This document shows, one piece after another, positions 17,978 to 61,197 of a stretch of DNA of 64,000 nt. The stretch lies in assembly GCF_019008365.1 (NCBI RefSeq), contig NZ_JAHHUL010000003.1, forward strand, positions 186,001 through 250,000, in the 5' to 3' direction. Each line of letters opens with the position of its first letter. Position 1 is the stretch's first letter. The notes beneath the pieces were generated by a model, which worked only from the letters and a program-made list of their open reading frames with translations, searched no databases and had not been told where the DNA came from. The translations under genes and the position numbers were made by a program. The DNA comes from Phosphitispora fastidiosa (GTDB lineage Bacteria > Bacillota > Thermincolia > Thermincolales > UBA2595).

Positions 17978-18283
17978 CCGGAAATGGCCGGGAAGGGAAT
18001 ATGGTGGGCTGTTGTACCGATTTTCCGCAGTGCCACCTATGAGTCTAGCTGCCACCCCCCGGCAACAAGGCAGCGTCCCCGAACTCGATGGCTCATGGGG
18101 CCTGTTTCATAAAATGGCCGCCTCTCGTTTTGGCAGGCCAAAACTTCCCGGCGGCCTTCGCCATCTTCGGACATGCGGGGACTCCCTGCCTTGCTGCCGG
18201 TGACTTGCAGCAAGACTCATAACGGCGGCAGTGCAAGGAAAATCTTTGTACAACAGCCCACCATATTCCGCGGCCATTTCCGG
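17978..18283 (+). repeat. Palindromic MITE-like repeat, copy 1 (306 bp)
   Basis: Terminal inverted repeats CCGGAAATGGCCG / CGGCCATTTCCGG flank a non-coding, imperfectly palindromic body with nested hairpins, for example GTTTTGGC-AG-GCCAAAAC. The inverted symmetry extends into the flanks: GTTTGCCTCCAT at 17958 is matched by ATGGAGGCAAAC ending at 18300. Copy 2 (26421) is nearly the same sequence in the opposite orientation, and copy 3 (61039) is a shorter version. No ORF is credible. The rest of 17887-18466 holds only the terminator and this element. Confidence 0.85.
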
Positions 18284-36480: not shown

Positions 36481-37602
36481 ATGTGTAAAGGTTTTTTAAA
36501 TTATTTTCGAATAACTGCAAAATCCAGCCTGCTGACGATAAGTTTACTGCTAATTCTTGACTTGGGAATAAGGCTGTATTGGGCAAATCTTTATCAGCAG
36601 CCTGGTGGTGTCAGATTAATTAACAGTGAATTAGAATCCTTGCAAACAATGATAAATGAAATAAAGAAGGCTGAAGGCTATAAAATTGTTTTTTTAGGTG
36701 ATTCGCAAACTTACGGCTCAGCTGTAAAAGACAGTTCAAATACAATTCCGGCTTATTTGGAACGAGACTTAGCAAAACTGTTTCCGGATAAGCAAATTAA
36801 GATTTTTAATCTTGCTTTTAAAGGGTATGGTATTTCGGAGAATTATTTCATATTAAATTCATTAATTAACGATGATGTTGATGTTGATTTAATTATTTAT
36901 AACATAAGTACCAGCTGGTTCAATAGAAATGAAATTCTGGAACATCAGAATGTGGTCGAATTGTCAGATGACCACGTTGAAGCAGTGAAGCTGGCTGACC
37001 TGAAAATTAAATATGATAAGAGTTTTGCAGAAAAGCTTAATGCTCAAGTCAACTTACAGGTTGGCAAGGTTTGGAGCCTTTATCAAAACAGAAGCGCTAT
37101 TACAGGCATATTATTAGGGAAGTCTTTTCGGGAAAAACTAACTGATTGGGAATTAAAACTTATTAATCCTAAAGAGGCCTTAAAAAGGGAAAAAGAAGCA
37201 GAAGAGTTGTATCAACCGTGGTTTTCCAAAGATTGGGACTCCAAGATTGGCAAGGCAAGTTATACATTTGGAACTGTAAACACTAATAGCGCTAACCCGC
37301 AAATAGTTTTTTACAAGATGATTTTAAACCTGGTTAATGACAATGAAATGAATGCCATCTTTTATAACAGTCCGCAAAACACCAAAATGATCGATAAATA
37401 TTACGGGATAGATAAGGAAGCCTGGCGTAAGAGCTTGGCAAACCTGAAGGCAATTACTACTAATAAATATATTACTTATTTAGATTACACTAATTCAGTT
37501 CCGGATATTTATTTTTCGGATACTGTCCATTTGAATTCCAGAGGAAACGAATTGCTTGCTAAACAGCTGGAAAAAGACATCATCAAAAACAGGAAGTGGT
37601 AA
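36481..37602 (+). CDS. SGNH-hydrolase-like membrane-anchored protein (DltD/AlgX-type partner of MBOAT)
   Basis: The 373-residue protein has an N-terminal anchor (SLLTISLLLILDLGIRLYW). It has the SGNH block I motif GDSQTYGSAV near residue 78 and a C-terminal catalytic DxxH (SDTVHLNSRGNE near residue 348). It lies directly before an MBOAT acyltransferase gene and a DltX-like micropeptide. This matches the layout of DltD/DltB/DltX or alginate O-acetylation systems, in which the SGNH protein passes an acyl group to an extracellular polymer. The acceptor is unknown. It is more AT-rich than the genes on either side. Confidence 0.82.
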   Translation: MCKGFLNYFRITAKSSLLTISLLLILDLGIRLYWANLYQQPGGVRLINSELESLQTMINEIKKAEGYKIVFLGDSQTYGSAVKDSSNTIPAYLERDLAKLFPDKQIKIFNLAFKGYGISENYFILNSLINDDVDVDLIIYNISTSWFNRNEILEHQNVVELSDDHVEAVKLADLKIKYDKSFAEKLNAQVNLQVGKVWSLYQNRSAITGILLGKSFREKLTDWELKLINPKEALKREKEAEELYQPWFSKDWDSKIGKASYTFGTVNTNSANPQIVFYKMILNLVNDNEMNAIFYNSPQNTKMIDKYYGIDKEAWRKSLANLKAITTNKYITYLDYTNSVPDIYFSDTVHLNSRGNELLAKQLEKDIIKNRKW

Positions 37603-37603
37603 T

Positions 37604-38767
37604 TTGACCTTAACTTCATGGATCTATGGATTGTTTTTGATTATTGTAACAGCAATATATTGGCTATTGCCGAAAACTTTAAGAACCCATCTCCTGCTGG
37701 CTGCAAGTGTTGTTTTTGTGTCTTATGCCTCTCCATATTTTGCTTTGCTGTTGTTTTGTCTAAGCAGTCTTGCTTTTTTTGCAGGCAAAATTGTTAGGGA
37801 GCGCCGGTTGTGGTTAATTATTGGCATTGGAATCCCCATATCCATTTTAATTTATTTTAAGTATCAACCGCTGATAAAACAAATTATGTCCTTTTGGGGT
37901 GGAGAAATAACGTTTAGCCCAACTAATCTGGCAATCCCATTAGGAATCTCTTTTTTTACTTTTAAGCTGATACACTATTTGGTTGACAGTTATCAGGGAA
38001 AACAGTCCCCTGGAGGCTATGGCCAATTTTTGTTATATATGTTTTTCTTTCCGATATTACCCTCAGGGCCGATTGAACGTTGGCAGAATTTTGCTGCTCA
38101 AGATAAGGATGCTCGTTATTTTAGGTGGGAATACATCTGTGATGGGGTTTCAAGAGTTATCATCGGACTTTTTAAAAAATTAGTTATTGCTGATACAATG
38201 GCTATTTACGCAGAGAACTTGCATGCTGCCGGGTTAAGCAGCATGGTATATTGGATAGCGGCTTATGCATACGCCGTACAGATTTATTTTGATTTTTCCG
38301 GTTACTCGGATATTGCGATTGGCAGCGCCAGGCTTTTGGGATACCGAATTATGGAGAATTTTGATTACCCGTATTTTAAGCGCAATTTGTCCCTATTTTG
38401 GAAAAGCTGGCATATGTCACTGACCGCCTGGTTCAGAGACTATGTCTTTATTCCCTTAGGGGGAAGCCGGGTTAGCTTTAAAAGAATAGTATTGAATACG
38501 CTCATTGTAATGGGGCTGACCGGTTTATGGCATGGAGCAGCGCTTCACTTTATGGCATGGGGTTTGTATCATGGAGCAGGTCTAATAATTCTGCGTTTAT
38601 ACAGTAAATATATTTCAAATAAGTTACCCCAGGCGTGGCAATCGTCCAAACTTGCCGGAATTTTTAGTACTTTTCTTACTTTTAATTACGTTGTGGCAGG
38701 GTGGGTTTTTTTCGCGACAAACTTCAAACAAAGTATTTATATCCTTCAGAAACTCCTGTTTTTTTGA
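37604..38767 (+). CDS. MBOAT family membrane-bound O-acyltransferase (DltB/AlgI-like)
   Basis: This 387-residue multi-pass protein has the MBOAT signature. FFPILPSGPIERWQNF is the AlgI/DltB entry motif, ISLFWKSWHMSLTAWFRDYVFIPLGGSR the core, and LTGLWHGAALHFMAWGLYHG holds the catalytic His. TTG 37604 follows AGGAAGTGG; the longer upstream frame only overlaps the preceding gene. It would carry an activated acyl group across the membrane, together with the SGNH protein upstream and the small protein downstream. Confidence 0.92.
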   Translation: MTLTSWIYGLFLIIVTAIYWLLPKTLRTHLLLAASVVFVSYASPYFALLLFCLSSLAFFAGKIVRERRLWLIIGIGIPISILIYFKYQPLIKQIMSFWGGEITFSPTNLAIPLGISFFTFKLIHYLVDSYQGKQSPGGYGQFLLYMFFFPILPSGPIERWQNFAAQDKDARYFRWEYICDGVSRVIIGLFKKLVIADTMAIYAENLHAAGLSSMVYWIAAYAYAVQIYFDFSGYSDIAIGSARLLGYRIMENFDYPYFKRNLSLFWKSWHMSLTAWFRDYVFIPLGGSRVSFKRIVLNTLIVMGLTGLWHGAALHFMAWGLYHGAGLIILRLYSKYISNKLPQAWQSSKLAGIFSTFLTFNYVVAGWVFFATNFKQSIYILQKLLFF

Positions 38768-38776
38768 AAGGGGATT

Positions 38777-38890
38777 ATGATGAAGAAGTATAAATTTATT
38801 ATTAGCGGCATATTCTGGACTTTTTTTATTGTATTAATCGTTTTGTTTTCCACCGGCGGCGAGACTCCGTTTATTTATACCAACTTTTGA
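38777..38890 (+). CDS. DltX-like micropeptide (37 residues)
   Basis: The ORF MMKKYKFIISGIFWTFFIV... has one membrane helix and ends TGGETPFIYTNF. This C-terminus resembles the conserved FxY-type end of DltX, whose Tyr is implicated in acyl transfer with DltB. It sits nine bases after the MBOAT stop with AAAGGGG upstream. The micropeptide is too short for standard ORF calling. Function by analogy with DltX is inference, but the order SGNH-MBOAT-micropeptide and the terminal motif agree. Confidence 0.72.
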   Translation: MMKKYKFIISGIFWTFFIVLIVLFSTGGETPFIYTNF

Positions 38891-42445: not shown

Positions 42446-43177
42446 GTGCATATTTATTTTTCTCTGCATTCGACAGGCCAGTTGGAAATACCATTGCAAT
42501 ATAACCATCTAGTACAGGCAGCTGTATATAATGGCATTGATCCTAAACTAGCAGCTTTTTTACATGAGGAGGGATACCAAAGCGGGAGCCGCAACTTTAA
42601 GTTATTTGCTTTTTCACGGTTGTTGGGAAGATTTCGGATAGTCAAAGAAAAAAACACCATCATTTTTTCTGACAGTTTAACACTTGTTGTGTCTTCCCCG
42701 GTGGAGCATTTTTGCCAATCCATAGCTAATGGGATGCTGACCAAAGGAACAGTAAGATTTGGCAGCAGCAATCTGGAAGTCGGGCAAATGGTGGTCCAAC
42801 ATCATAGCGTTGAAGGAGACCGAGTGGTGCTTAGAACGCTGTCACCTGTTGTGGTATACAGCACCTTGCTGAGACCGGACGGAAGAAAGTACACATGCTA
42901 TTTTCAGCCGGGAGACCCGGATTACAATTCTCTGGTGGAAAATAATTTGCGAAAAAAATATCAGGCCTTTTACGGGAAGGAAGCGCCGCAGGGCGTGGCC
43001 AAAATCCAGAGGTTAGGCAGAGGGGAGATGAGGTTGCTAAACTACAAAGGTACTGTGATTAAGGGATATACCGGGAAGGTGGTGTTAACCGGGCCGGGAG
43101 AACTGCTGCAAATGGCTGTGGATGCCGGGATTGGGAGTAAGAATTCACAGGGGTTTGGGTGTGTTGAGCTAGCTTAA
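42446..43177 (+). CDS. cas6: CRISPR pre-crRNA endonuclease Cas6
   Basis: This 243-residue RAMP protein cuts the repeat in the long CRISPR transcript. The C-terminal glycine-rich motif GPGELLQMAVDAGIGSKNSQGFGCVEL is diagnostic of Cas6. The N-terminal half carries the first ferredoxin-like fold (YNHLVQAAVYNGID, with a nearby His as catalytic candidate). GTG 42446 follows AAAGAGGTGAT. First gene of an eight-gene cas operon. Confidence 0.93.
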   Translation: MHIYFSLHSTGQLEIPLQYNHLVQAAVYNGIDPKLAAFLHEEGYQSGSRNFKLFAFSRLLGRFRIVKEKNTIIFSDSLTLVVSSPVEHFCQSIANGMLTKGTVRFGSSNLEVGQMVVQHHSVEGDRVVLRTLSPVVVYSTLLRPDGRKYTCYFQPGDPDYNSLVENNLRKKYQAFYGKEAPQGVAKIQRLGRGEMRLLNYKGTVIKGYTGKVVLTGPGELLQMAVDAGIGSKNSQGFGCVELA

Positions 43178-50936: not shown

Positions 50937-53900
50937 GTTTTCAGCTTACCTATAAGGAATTGAAACTTTTATAAGGTGGTCTCACACCATCAACTTTAAC
51001 ACCAGTTTTCAGCTTACCTATAAGGAATTGAAACACTAAAGCCGGGGTGATACCTGATGATAGCTGGCAACGTTTTCAGCTTACCTATAAGGAATTGAAA
51101 CGATGATCAGTGATATCAAAAAAGTAACATCTGAAGAAGGTTTTCAGCTTACCTATAAGGAATTGAAACTCCAGAGTGCTCCGATTCATGAAGTAGGCCT
51201 GGACTGTTTTCAGCTTACCTATAAGGAATTGAAACGCCCAGTGATCCGCGATATCTGCAAACTGTTCCTCCGTTTTCAGCTTACCTATAAGGAATTGAAA
51301 CATCAAAACTATAACTATTTCAAACGTAACCTCGCCAAGTTTTCAGCTTACCTATAAGGAATTGAAACCGTGAAACAATTAACCGGGAAGAAGTACCGGC
51401 TAGAGTTTTCAGCTTACCTATAAGGAATTGAAACCTGTAATTCTCCGACCCAAACGCGGCCATTTCGGTTGTTTTCAGCTTACCTATAAGGAATTGAAAC
51501 AGCAGCGGCCCCCACGTTTTAAACTCTTCCACGTTTTCGTTTTCAGCTTACCTATAAGGAATTGAAACTGCAACCAAGTCCTTAACTTACCTGCCGACCT
51601 ACTATTGTTTTCAGCTTACCTATAAGGAATTGAAACTCCTCGGCGAAGGCCCCCTGCGTGATGACTTTGGTTTTCAGCTTACCTATAAGGAATTGAAACC
51701 CCTGGACCTGGACAACATCCAACCTGGTCAGACCCAGTTTTCAGCTTACCTATAAGGAATTGAAACCTTTACATATTGCTTCAGGTGCTGTTTTACCGTT
51801 AAGTTTTCAGCTTACCTATAAGGAATTGAAACAGTCCATCCAGTACTCAGGTAATAGATGCCACTGGTTTTCAGCTTACCTATAAGGAATTGAAACTTGA
51901 AAAAGACAGCACCGAAACCACTGGAACAGTAGGTTTTCAGCTTACCTATAAGGAATTGAAACCCGGAAATTCCGCCACAAAGGCACCGACATACACCGTT
52001 TTCAGCTTACCTATAAGGAATTGAAACATACCTTCAGACATTGAAGACTTACAGGAGGCTTTACGTTTTCAGCTTACCTATAAGGAATTGAAACATCGCA
52101 GTCAACAGCGCCTCAGTATCACCCATAGCCACAGTTTTCAGCTTACCTATAAGGAATTGAAACAAGACAATTCTTCCATAATGCCGATAAGACAGGCTTT
52201 AGTTTTCAGCTTACCTATAAGGAATTGAAACAAGCATTTGCAATTTGCTTCAAGGGTGTTTCGTCGGGTTTTCAGCTTACCTATAAGGAATTGAAACTTT
52301 GAGAATCCACCCGTCACTCTTGGGTCAGCTACGGTTTTCAGCTTACCTATAAGGAATTGAAACGGATAAACAGCACGGTATCTGTTTCATAAAGAGCTAA
52401 GTTTTCAGCTTACCTATAAGGAATTGAAACCCTTTGTAATCCAGTTTATAACTTCTGCTTTTGTAGCAAGTTTTCAGCTTACCTATAAGGAATTGAAACC
52501 CAAATGGGGGGCCGCTGCTGCCGCCGCAGCCGGTACAGTTTTCAGCTTACCTATAAGGAATTGAAACTTTGGAGCGGAAGATAGAGGACCTGAACATGTC
52601 TCTGGGTTTTCAGCTTACCTATAAGGAATTGAAACCTGAAAAAGAAGTAGATTTTCCAGACCCTTCTTTAGTTTTCAGCTTACCTATAAGGAATTGAAAC
52701 TGGCCCGCTGTCGAACTACATGCTCACCATTTTCTCCGTTTTCAGCTTACCTATAAGGAATTGAAACGGATAAACAGCACGGTATCTGTTTCATAAAGAG
52801 CTAAGTTTTCAGCTTACCTATAAGGAATTGAAACCCTTTGTAATCCAGTTTATAACTTCTGCTTTTGTAGCAAGTTTTCAGCTTACCTATAAGGAATTGA
52901 AACCCAAATGGGGGGCCGCTGCTGCCGCCGCAGCCGGTACAGTTTTCAGCTTACCTATAAGGAATTGAAACTTTGGAGCGGAAGATAGAGGACCTGAACA
53001 TGTCTCTGGGTTTTCAGCTTACCTATAAGGAATTGAAACTCAGCACAGGTATTGATATCACCAAAAAAAATGTCACAGTTTTCAGCTTACCTATAAGGAA
53101 TTGAAACTAGATTATATGCCACAGATAGAAATAATTTTTGAAACGTTTTCAGCTTACCTATAAGGAATTGAAACAGTATTAATGTTCCTGCAGCTGCTGT
53201 AACGGTCATAGTTTTCAGCTTACCTATAAGGAATTGAAACGGCAGCGCATCAAGCCTTTGCCTAATTTCGGCTATGTTTTCAGCTTACCTATAAGGAATT
53301 GAAACCGAAGCGGACAAGCGTCTTGAGGGCTATTCCCCATGGTTTTCAGCTTACCTATAAGGAATTGAAACCCAAAAGGAGGCTGGTGTGGTGGTTTGGT
53401 CAAACGACAAGTTTTCAGCTTACCTATAAGGAATTGAAACGCTGATAAGCGTTGTGGTCAGCGGCAGAAACCAAATCGTTTTCAGCTTACCTATAAGGAA
53501 TTGAAACGTTGGTGCTAAAAGGAGTCTTGCAACAAAATATCCGTTTTCAGCTTACCTATAAGGAATTGAAACTTACAAAATCAAAGAGGAGCAGCACAAA
53601 AACGCTGAGTTTTCAGCTTACCTATAAGGAATTGAAACACGAGGGCCGCCTATCCACCAGTACCTATGCCACTTATGAGTTTTCAGCTTACCTATAAGGA
53701 ATTGAAACCCTACTAGATACGCAGCGCCGATGAGCAGAAACATGGTTTTCAGCTTACCTATAAGGAATTGAAACTCGTTCCTGTAATCCTGAATCATCTG
53801 GAACACCTGGGTTTTCAGCTTACCTATAAGGAATTGAAACATGCTGCACGGGTCAGTATTGCAGCCCGCGACGGTTCGGTTTTCAGCTTACCTATAAGGA

Positions 53901-55263
53901 ATTGAAACATCTTCCTCGGGCAGTAATATTGTTGTAGCCGACCTGTCCGGTTTTCAGCTTACCTATAAGGAATTGAAACATGCTCTTGTTACGTTTTGTC
54001 AACAAAAATGTAACATTAGTTTTCAGCTTACCTATAAGGAATTGAAACGATGAAGGACAGGCCACACTTGATAGCAGGAGTTTTTGTTTTCAGCTTACCT
54101 ATAAGGAATTGAAACCCGGCAATTACTACATTCCCCGCAATGCCCCCAACATTGTTTTCAGCTTACCTATAAGGAATTGAAACGTCAGCCATGCCTCACA
54201 TACAGCACAAACTGCCTTGTTGTTTTCAGCTTACCTATAAGGAATTGAAACGCGAATTTTGTCAATGCTTATCGCAATATTTATTTGATTGTTTTCAGCT
54301 TACCTATAAGGAATTGAAACATCACAACAACGCAGCATCTAAATCATGCTATGATGCACATAACCGCGTTTTCAGCTTACCTATAAGGAATTGAAACAAC
54401 TCAGCTTTAGACTCTCTGGACAGGATGGTTAAGTTTTCAGCTTACCTATAAGGAATTGAAACTGGTCTTTGAACTTCACCACATTAACACTTTGTTTAAA
54501 GTTTTCAGCTTACCTATAAGGAATTGAAACCTGGTCGGGGTGTAGACCTTGACCTCCTGGCCGTGAGTTTTCAGCTTACCTATAAGGAATTGAAACTTTT
54601 CATTAATCTGGCGGCTTCACTAAAAGAATATCCCTGTTTTCAGCTTACCTATAAGGAATTGAAACTTAGATGACCTTGTGGATGTGCCAAAACAACCGAA
54701 GGTTTTCAGCTTACCTATAAGGAATTGAAACCAGGCCAACGGTGAGCAAGCCGATAAGGCACTCAAGTTTTCAGCTTACCTATAAGGAATTGAAACTTTT
54801 CCATTAATCTTCATCCTCCTGTTCTCCGCATTCGTTTTCAGCTTACCTATAAGGAATTGAAACATCCACCAATATCTCCCATCTCTCAAATTGTCAAAGT
54901 TTTCAGCTTACCTATAAGGAATTGAAACCGGCGAAGCTCAACTTTCAACTGATAATGGTGTTGCGTGTTTTCAGCTTACCTATAAGGAATTGAAACTTTT
55001 TTCCAGTATATGAGCCTTCCTGGTAGTCACCACGTTTTCAGCTTACCTATAAGGAATTGAAACACGGCATCGATTGAAATAACGGCAGAGGCGGTGAATG
55101 CCGTTTTCAGCTTACCTATAAGGAATTGAAACTGGGAGATGTAAGCAGGATGAGAAAAAGTTTTTAGTTTTCAGCTTACCTATAAGGAATTGAAACTTGT
55201 GTTTTGTATTGGCCAAATAACAAAGGATATTATGTTTTCAGCGTACCTATAAGGAATTGAAAC
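50937..55263 (+). CRISPR. CRISPR array, 65 repeats and 64 spacers
   Basis: A 30-base repeat beginning GTTTTCAGCT and ending AATTGAAAC recurs 65 times by my count, with spacers of about 33-40 bases. It is almost invariant; only the last copy (55234-55263) carries a T-to-G change at position 11, marking the leader-distal end. Spacers 22-25 (after repeats at 52334, 52401, 52470 and 52538) recur identically after repeats at 52738, 52805, 52874 and 52942. The GTTT...GAAAC form is common in type I-B. Length and repeat conservation indicate an active array. About 60 distinct spacers. Confidence 0.98.
52364..53009 (+). repeat. Duplicated four-spacer block within the CRISPR array
   Basis: The spacers in 52364-52605 and 52768-53009 are identical in sequence and order, offset by 404 bp. 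Two non-duplicated spacers lie between them (after repeats 52606 and 52671). This indicates recombination between repeats rather than independent acquisition. Confidence 0.95.
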
Positions 55264-61038: not shown

Positions 61039-61197
61039 CCGGAAATGACCGTGGGTGCATATGGTGAGGCATTGTAGCGGTTTTCCGCACTGCCGCCTAT
61101 GAGTCTAAACTGCAATCCCCCGGCAGCAAGACTCATAACGGCATCAGTGCAAGGAAAATCTCATACAACACCTCACCATATGCCACGGTCATTTCCG
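61039..61197 (+). repeat. Palindromic MITE-like repeat, copy 3 (159 bp, internally deleted)
   Basis: Same ends as copies 1 and 2 (CCGGAAATGACCG ... CGGTCATTTCCG), same orientation as copy 1, but the central ~145 bp hairpin block is missing. It begins 11 bases after the EcfS stop and ends 34 bases before the UbiD start. Confidence 0.84.

Follow-up and report, generated by a model that had tools for sequence, protein, structure and literature searches.

A detached microprotein as the probable acyl-tyrosine shuttle of an MBOAT/SGNH cassette outside the Dlt system

What does a short membrane peptide that ends like DltX do beside an acyltransferase gene where no DltA or DltC is encoded? The question is raised by a cassette of Phosphitispora fastidiosa that comprises an SGNH-like gene, a membrane-bound O-acyltransferase (MBOAT) gene and a microprotein gene, here called X. 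The window analyzed is the whole stretch of 64,000 nucleotides at positions 186,001–250,000 of contig NZ_JAHHUL010000003.1 (assembly GCF_019008365.1; contig C3 of a 4.09-Mb, 99.96% complete genome). An earlier note on this DNA proposed a DltX-type micropeptide working in another O-acylation system, and comparison across genomes supports that proposal, as X is conserved beside related MBOATs. X is quite probably the detached acyl-tyrosine shuttle of a coenzyme A (CoA)-dependent MBOAT/SGNH envelope O-acyltransferase.

The three genes were read from open reading frames (ORFs) in tandem on the + strand. The first (36481–37602, +) is a 373-amino-acid (aa) ORF for a predicted SGNH/GDSL-fold, membrane-anchored acyltransferase-like protein. 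The MBOAT gene (37604–38767, +) encodes a 387-aa protein that lacks the C-terminal tail found in AlgI/PatA-type enzymes; its start was listed as TTG 37556, and TTG 37604, from which relatives align, was adopted. The MBOAT stop TGA (38765–38767, +) precedes a Shine-Dalgarno-like AAGGGG (38768–38773, +) that lies directly before the ATG codons of X. Microprotein X (38777–38890, +) has two candidate starts, ATG 38777 (37 aa) and ATG 38780 (36 aa), and stops at TGA 38888–38890. In the window, X and the MBOAT share one frame, with 9 nt and the single TGA between them. X has a positive N-terminus, one predicted transmembrane helix (399–415 of the model described below) and the final seven residues PFIYTNF (codons 38867–38887, +), so the 37-residue peptide described by the earlier note is borne out. 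The Tyr of the proposed acyl-shuttle motif is encoded at 38876–38878 (+) and is conserved without exception in the 19 aligned X.

Conservation was assessed with a profile made from six split MBOATs, searched against 299 genomes of the same phylum. Places at E 1e-30 or better were kept, and every 3′ end was inspected. The profile found 116 places in 80 of the genomes. Eight are DltB. The motif is fused to the MBOAT C-terminus at 92 places (15 among the first 30 loci and 77 of 80 later loci); of these 77 tails, 73 read F-x-Y-x-x-F and four read x-I-Y-x-x-F without the first Phe. Fifteen places (L019–L032, L035) have a short non-DltB MBOAT with X as a separate downstream ORF that ends FIYxxF, and these cassettes are spread over six families. 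The tail of L196 is degenerate (PYAFFKL), and this locus was counted as neither fused nor split; L016, whose MBOAT and tail lie in different frames, was not counted. L010 and L011 were taken as the same genomes as G011 and G161 and counted once. Further MBOAT matches were examined at loci L077–L106 (n = 30) and in stretches from G301, G302 and G488, and all 28 loci L079–L106 have a fused tail.

A separate X lies downstream of all 15 tail-less non-DltB MBOATs, which answers the conservation check that the earlier note had set beforehand. One of the 92 fused MBOATs is followed by a pattern match, a 23-residue frame ending 16 nt past the MBOAT stop that was judged to be chance. Fused tail and separate X are mutually exclusive. 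An SGNH gene is adjacent in all 15 split sets of the phylum, in the order SGNH-MBOAT-X in 12 and MBOAT-X-SGNH in three (G051, G004, G125). The weak SGNH gene of L070 was recognized through the SGNH alignment; in L066 the SGNH gene is disrupted and spread across two frames. The closest named relative is a Thermincola ferriacetica metagenome-assembled genome (MAG), whose MBOAT is 98% identical.

Eight further MBOAT/X/SGNH sets were found in five Ignavibacteria-group genomes, each with an SGNH gene adjacent. L012, L014, L017 and L018 (Ignavibacteria and a Bacteroidetes MAG) have the order MBOAT-X-SGNH, and X ends PFIYGDF. L117–L120 (genomes G301, G302, G488) have a second arrangement, MBOAT-SGNH-X, in which these four further X end NPF[YF]Y..F and also show F-x-Y-x-x-F. 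G301 and G302 are also among the genomes behind the first four sets, and G488 is additional. The same three parts thus occur in three gene orders, which argues for a functional set. SDR, ATP-grasp and GATase-domain (asparagine-synthase-like) genes form a conserved row after MBOAT-X-SGNH in L012 (4971–11001), L014 and L018.

In an alignment of 19 X, only four columns are invariant, the F, I, Y and F of F-I-Y-x-x-F (two rows, L014 and L017, start at a non-Met residue or one codon ahead). Part of the relatives have X in the frame of the MBOAT, the rest in another frame, and the gap from the MBOAT stop to the chosen X start runs from −1 to >100 nt. Many relatives have a purine-rich site ahead of the X start, which is ATG, GTG or TTG. 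Judged from these sequences, X is a conserved gene of its own. By itself the motif is weak evidence, and position and conservation carry the case for X. F-x-Y-x-x-F precedes one of 5648 in-frame stop positions of the window, which is not decisive because 0.36 are expected per 64 kb (first-order Markov model; 36 in 100 simulated windows). A motif control gave seven matches in 244 frames, comprising three that overlap or adjoin an MBOAT gene and four from SGNH genes with a true X directly after them.

Two rival explanations start from the shared frame. X could be the decaying remnant of a fused tail severed in this lineage by a nonsense mutation, the in-frame TGA; alternatively, programmed readthrough of that stop could yield a fused MBOAT-X. 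In favor of a remnant, the window and its 98% relative have X and the MBOAT in one frame; in favor of readthrough, L019, L020, L025 and L031 have one frame without a further stop. However, X is separate in 15 genomes of six families and in the eight Ignavibacteria-group sets, with differing frames and an invariant motif, and the extra C-terminal region of fused MBOATs is missing from split MBOATs as well. Readthrough is further opposed by differing frames in L021–L024, L026, L027, L029, L032 and L035, by extra stops between MBOAT and X in L028 and L030, and by in-frame stops that differ in kind (TGA in the window, TAA in L025); X also comes with start codons and ribosome-binding-like sites of its own. 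Variable frame and spacing with an invariant motif therefore speak against both decay and readthrough. We consider a remnant highly improbable and readthrough extremely so. A recent lesion is refuted by conservation; an ancient fission is a possible origin of X.

Both enzymes of the cassette have kept their catalytic residues. The MBOAT scores 72.6 bits against PF03062 (cut-off 27), and its His270 (codon 38411–38413) and His310 (38531–38533) columns hold His in 65 of 65 tree rows. It ends ...YILQKLLFF, and in the alignment it lacks the extra C-terminal region of fused MBOATs, as split MBOATs generally do; it is not a fused-tail enzyme with the motif on its own C-terminus after extra helices. 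The SGNH protein has a Pfam GDSL match below the cut-off and no PF04914 (DltD) match at E 0.001. Its predicted catalytic residues are Ser75 (codon 36703–36705), Asp347 (37519–37521) and His350 (37528–37530), and S75, G79, N110, D347 and H350 are invariant in all 12 rows of the alignment of relatives. An MBOAT with catalytic His, an adjacent SGNH protein with Ser-Asp-His and a C-terminal F-x-Y-x-x-F, the marks of an acyl-shuttle system, are all present in the cassette.

Predicted folds were compared with solved structures. The MBOAT-X chain was modeled from window positions 37604–38887 with TGA read as Trp and 74 alignment rows, giving a predicted local distance difference test (pLDDT) of 91.6 and a predicted template modeling score (pTM) of 0.89. 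Its best match is DltB (Z 37.2), and the next MBOAT has Z 29.0. The SGNH model (pLDDT 85.2) matches four DltD entries at Z 17.9–18.4 over 278–295 residues, with Z 18.4 reached over 288–291 aa, and other GDSL proteins match at Z 15.5 or less over shorter stretches. PatB, AlgJ and AlgX have no row among the best 50 folds for the SGNH model, which excludes nothing.

DltA and DltC, absent here according to the earlier note, were sought genome-wide. DltA (TIGR01734) is over its cut-off in none of 20 split-cassette genomes and passes in all three dlt control genomes. DltC (TIGR01688) is over its cut-off in none of 19 split-cassette genome handles, probably 17 genomes; L010 and L011 entered this set as G299 and G300, and the set excludes G294, G070 and G488. 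The genome of the window has no DltC match at E 0.001. Against DltX PF12459 (cut-off 25 bits), the window X has no match at E 10 and none of 19 split genomes is over the cut-off; a control DltX from a dlt operon scores 53 bits. Only sub-threshold matches were found in the split genomes, and some of these are the X genes themselves. The DltB equivalog TIGR04091 gives the window MBOAT 180.4 bits, below its cut-off of 375, and does not separate split (180–199 bits) from fused (168 bits) MBOATs. As a query, X gave no usable sequence match in Pfam, NCBIfam or PDB; an IcaD match (E 0.007) is below its cut-off.

Within the DltB loci themselves, a DltX-like ORF was seen in four of eight (L071, L073, L074, L075) and was not seen in the stretch fetched for L072, L076, L200 and L201. 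One dlt operon has a DltX-like ORF ending GFTYAEF after dltD and not before dltA (L073:9304–9531).

A tree was built from 65 MBOATs (8 DltB, 20 split, 37 fused) over 386 columns. The fused sample comprises 37 of the fused MBOATs collected; fragments (L162, L080), a partial MBOAT (L017) and near-copies (L027, L031) were left out. The eight DltB form their own group (100/100), with split and fused MBOATs on the other side. Ten MBOAT positions distinguish DltB from split enzymes, and fused enzymes agree with split ones at nearly all of them. The W319 column, nine residues past the catalytic His, is Tyr in 8 of 8 DltB, Trp in 20 of 20 split and Trp in 33 of 37 fused MBOATs. By its spacing, this column is that of Tyr345 of DltB, to which an inhibitor reportedly binds within the active site (PMC11035591). 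Separate (split and DltB) and fused states need two changes on the tree, or one without L122. If the tree is rooted on DltB, a root that the tree method does not itself supply, the detached form would hypothetically be ancestral and fusion derived.

Two further explanations accept X as a gene. The cassette might be part of a D-alanylation (Dlt) system that has its charging proteins, DltA and DltC, at another locus, and the best fold matches to DltB and DltD point that way, as do weak DltX matches of X from L024 and L026 (E 0.009 and 0.034, below the cut-off). We nevertheless regard it as unlikely. No DltA or DltC is over its cut-off in the split-cassette genomes searched, the MBOAT reaches 180 of the 375 bits of TIGR04091, DltB keeps its own tree group at 100/100, the ten sites including W319 (Tyr in DltB) follow the fused type, no sulfatase-family match appears in the search of the window's genome, and X follows the MBOAT or SGNH gene and is not placed before dltA. 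The cassette parts are built like Dlt parts, and the set is not a Dlt system. Alternatively, X could be merely a structural or regulatory small membrane protein that is never acylated; a regulatory role is also discussed for DltX (PMC11035591). This is very unlikely, as nothing in X is invariant except the C-terminal motif, which matches the PatA hexapeptide reported as an acetyl carrier and donor to PatB (PMC12148441).

Some observations weigh against X as a detached shuttle of a CoA-dependent system. In the model, X reaches only pLDDT 55–73, and its contact with the MBOAT is modeled with low confidence. The nearest solved folds of both the MBOAT and the SGNH protein are Dlt proteins, a closeness that may only reflect that fused-type MBOATs are unsolved. 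A single clade of split MBOATs is weakly rejected (approximately unbiased test, p 0.0196), so 'detached' describes a grade and not a clean family. Finally, a carrier protein lies beside the MBOAT in two Ignavibacteria-group sets, so CoA is not assured as the donor in every set. This 76-residue protein is encoded ahead of the MBOAT in L117 and L120 (PP-binding 25.6 bits in L117, over the Pfam cut-off) and is not DltC by the curated cut-off. These carrier protein-MBOAT-SGNH-X sets (L117:6299–8853, L120:168–2634) lack DltA and are possible intermediates between Dlt and CoA-dependent systems.

The shuttle function proposed for X follows a scheme published for other MBOATs, in which an acyl group moves from a cytoplasmic thioester to a hexapeptide Tyr, then to the SGNH Ser and the polymer. 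The source demonstrates it in PatA/PatB, where acetyl-CoA is the donor, and describes it for Dlt, where DltX takes part (PMC12148441). The Tyr of PatA equivalent to that of X is acetylated there, and the hexapeptide donates acetyl to PatB. The residues needed, His310, the X Tyr and Ser75-Asp347-His350, are present in the cassette. The gene set, its conservation, the catalytic residues, the predicted folds and the lack of DltA and DltC over cut-offs are established, and from them we infer the chemistry. The MBOAT would draw on a cytoplasmic thioester for the acyl group, which His310 would help load onto the Tyr of the extracytoplasmic X C-terminus. X would stay in the membrane with both enzymes and hand the acyl group to Ser75 of the SGNH protein, which would esterify an envelope glycan.

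An acyl-CoA donor is the likeliest because no charging enzyme was found, and we lean towards CoA with a short acyl group, most likely acetyl. The window MBOAT is the only MBOAT found in its genome and no AT3 match was found there; the cassette would thus be that genome's sole envelope O-acyltransferase from the MBOAT and AT3 families. LtaS is a member of the sulfatase family, and without a sulfatase-family match in this genome, LtaS-made lipoteichoic acid is not a likely target. A somewhat better candidate than lipoteichoic acid is peptidoglycan or another wall glycan.

Peptides with the same end occur in a further setting. In the phylum to which G301 belongs, 87 of 247 genomes have DUF5989 (PF19451, cut-off 27 bits); in the window's phylum it is over the cut-off in two of the 299. 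The window X does not match it, and X of L021 and L024 match at E 0.03–0.09, below the cut-off. In all 32 loci read (L210, L211, L216–L245), DUF5989 ends PF[IV]Y[TA][LI]F, and no MBOAT signature lies within about 1.5 kb. A Pfam scan of neighbors at L211, L216, L219, L221 and L236 found a carbamoyltransferase gene in all five and an SxtJ-family gene in three. L244 has an SxtJ-family gene beside DUF5989 (carbamoyltransferase was not scanned for there), and L226 has an amylase-family gene upstream. No paper naming DUF5989 was found in the literature searched. DUF5989 may likewise act as a shuttle, perhaps of a carbamoyl or related group. As a tentative and rather doubtful extension, acyl-shuttle microproteins could be a portable module beyond Dlt, detached ancestrally and fused as tails later, plugged into carrier and DltA (Dlt), CoA (this cassette), carrier without DltA (the two Ignavibacteria-group sets) and carbamoyltransferase/SxtJ operons without an MBOAT, where DUF5989 would carry a carbamoyl or related group.

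None of the literature titles and abstracts searched reports a detached shuttle peptide outside Dlt; the search did not cover Schultz and colleagues 2023, reportedly the original acyl-shuttle paper. A seemingly related paper on lipoprotein N-acetylation (PMC12345273) does not, where consulted, present its enzyme as an MBOAT-SGNH pair. The detached shuttle outside Dlt is the new part, as the mechanism itself is published for Dlt and fused MBOATs. The earlier note's idea of a general mechanism for AlgI-type MBOATs is partly upheld: the Tyr-shuttle motif is general and already published in fused form (PMC12148441), but the detached form accounts for 15 of 107 non-DltB places bearing a motif. According to that 2025 paper, non-Dlt MBOAT-SGNH pathways have no DltX-like microprotein, and the cassette breaks this rule. 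A 36-residue peptide acting in trans would be a clean test system for acyl-Tyr shuttling, in which the Tyr can be altered, swapped or supplied as a peptide with the MBOAT untouched. ORFs the size of X can escape annotation, so further systems may look as if they lacked a part. Were the detached form ancestral, Dlt and alginate/peptidoglycan acetylation would share one history.

Elsewhere in the window, ABC-F-type and RecD2 helicase genes neighbor the cassette, with no recognized glycan genes directly adjoining. A promoter and terminator scan gave signals not above shuffled sequence. An array of clustered regularly interspaced short palindromic repeats (CRISPR) spans 50937–55100 with about 62 repeats (GTTTTCAGCTTACCTATAAGGAATTGAAAC), and a 300-nt repeat/spacer block is exactly duplicated within it (52334–52633 and 52738–53037). 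The ORF at 42446–43177 is presumably Cas6-like, by resemblance. A 39-nt stretch occurs twice, 43 kb apart and 95% identical (18207–18245 and 61123–61161).

Among known systems, the cassette was compared with DUF5989 operons, Dlt and PatA-PatB-type pathways. DUF5989 resembles X in its length of about 50 aa, hydrophobic stretch and terminal motif, but it lies beside carbamoyltransferase (and SxtJ-family) genes without a nearby MBOAT, and the window X fails its profile. Like DltB-DltX-DltD, the cassette has an MBOAT, a DltD-like SGNH protein and a separate one-helix microprotein ending F-x-Y-x-x-F, and its enzymes have DltB and DltD as best structural matches. It differs from Dlt in that its genomes have no DltA or DltC over cut-off, the DltB, DltX and DltD sequence cut-offs are not reached, X follows the MBOAT or SGNH gene and the MBOAT groups away from DltB. 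In PatA-PatB-type MBOAT-SGNH O-acetyltransferases (AlgI, WssH, PatA1B1), the hexapeptide is part of the MBOAT, whereas the cassette encodes it on a separate gene beside an MBOAT without the extra C-terminal region. The cassette MBOAT shares with their fused-tail MBOATs the same side of the tree and the same diagnostic letters, and the systems share the C-terminal hexapeptide and operate without a dedicated charging enzyme (PMC12148441).
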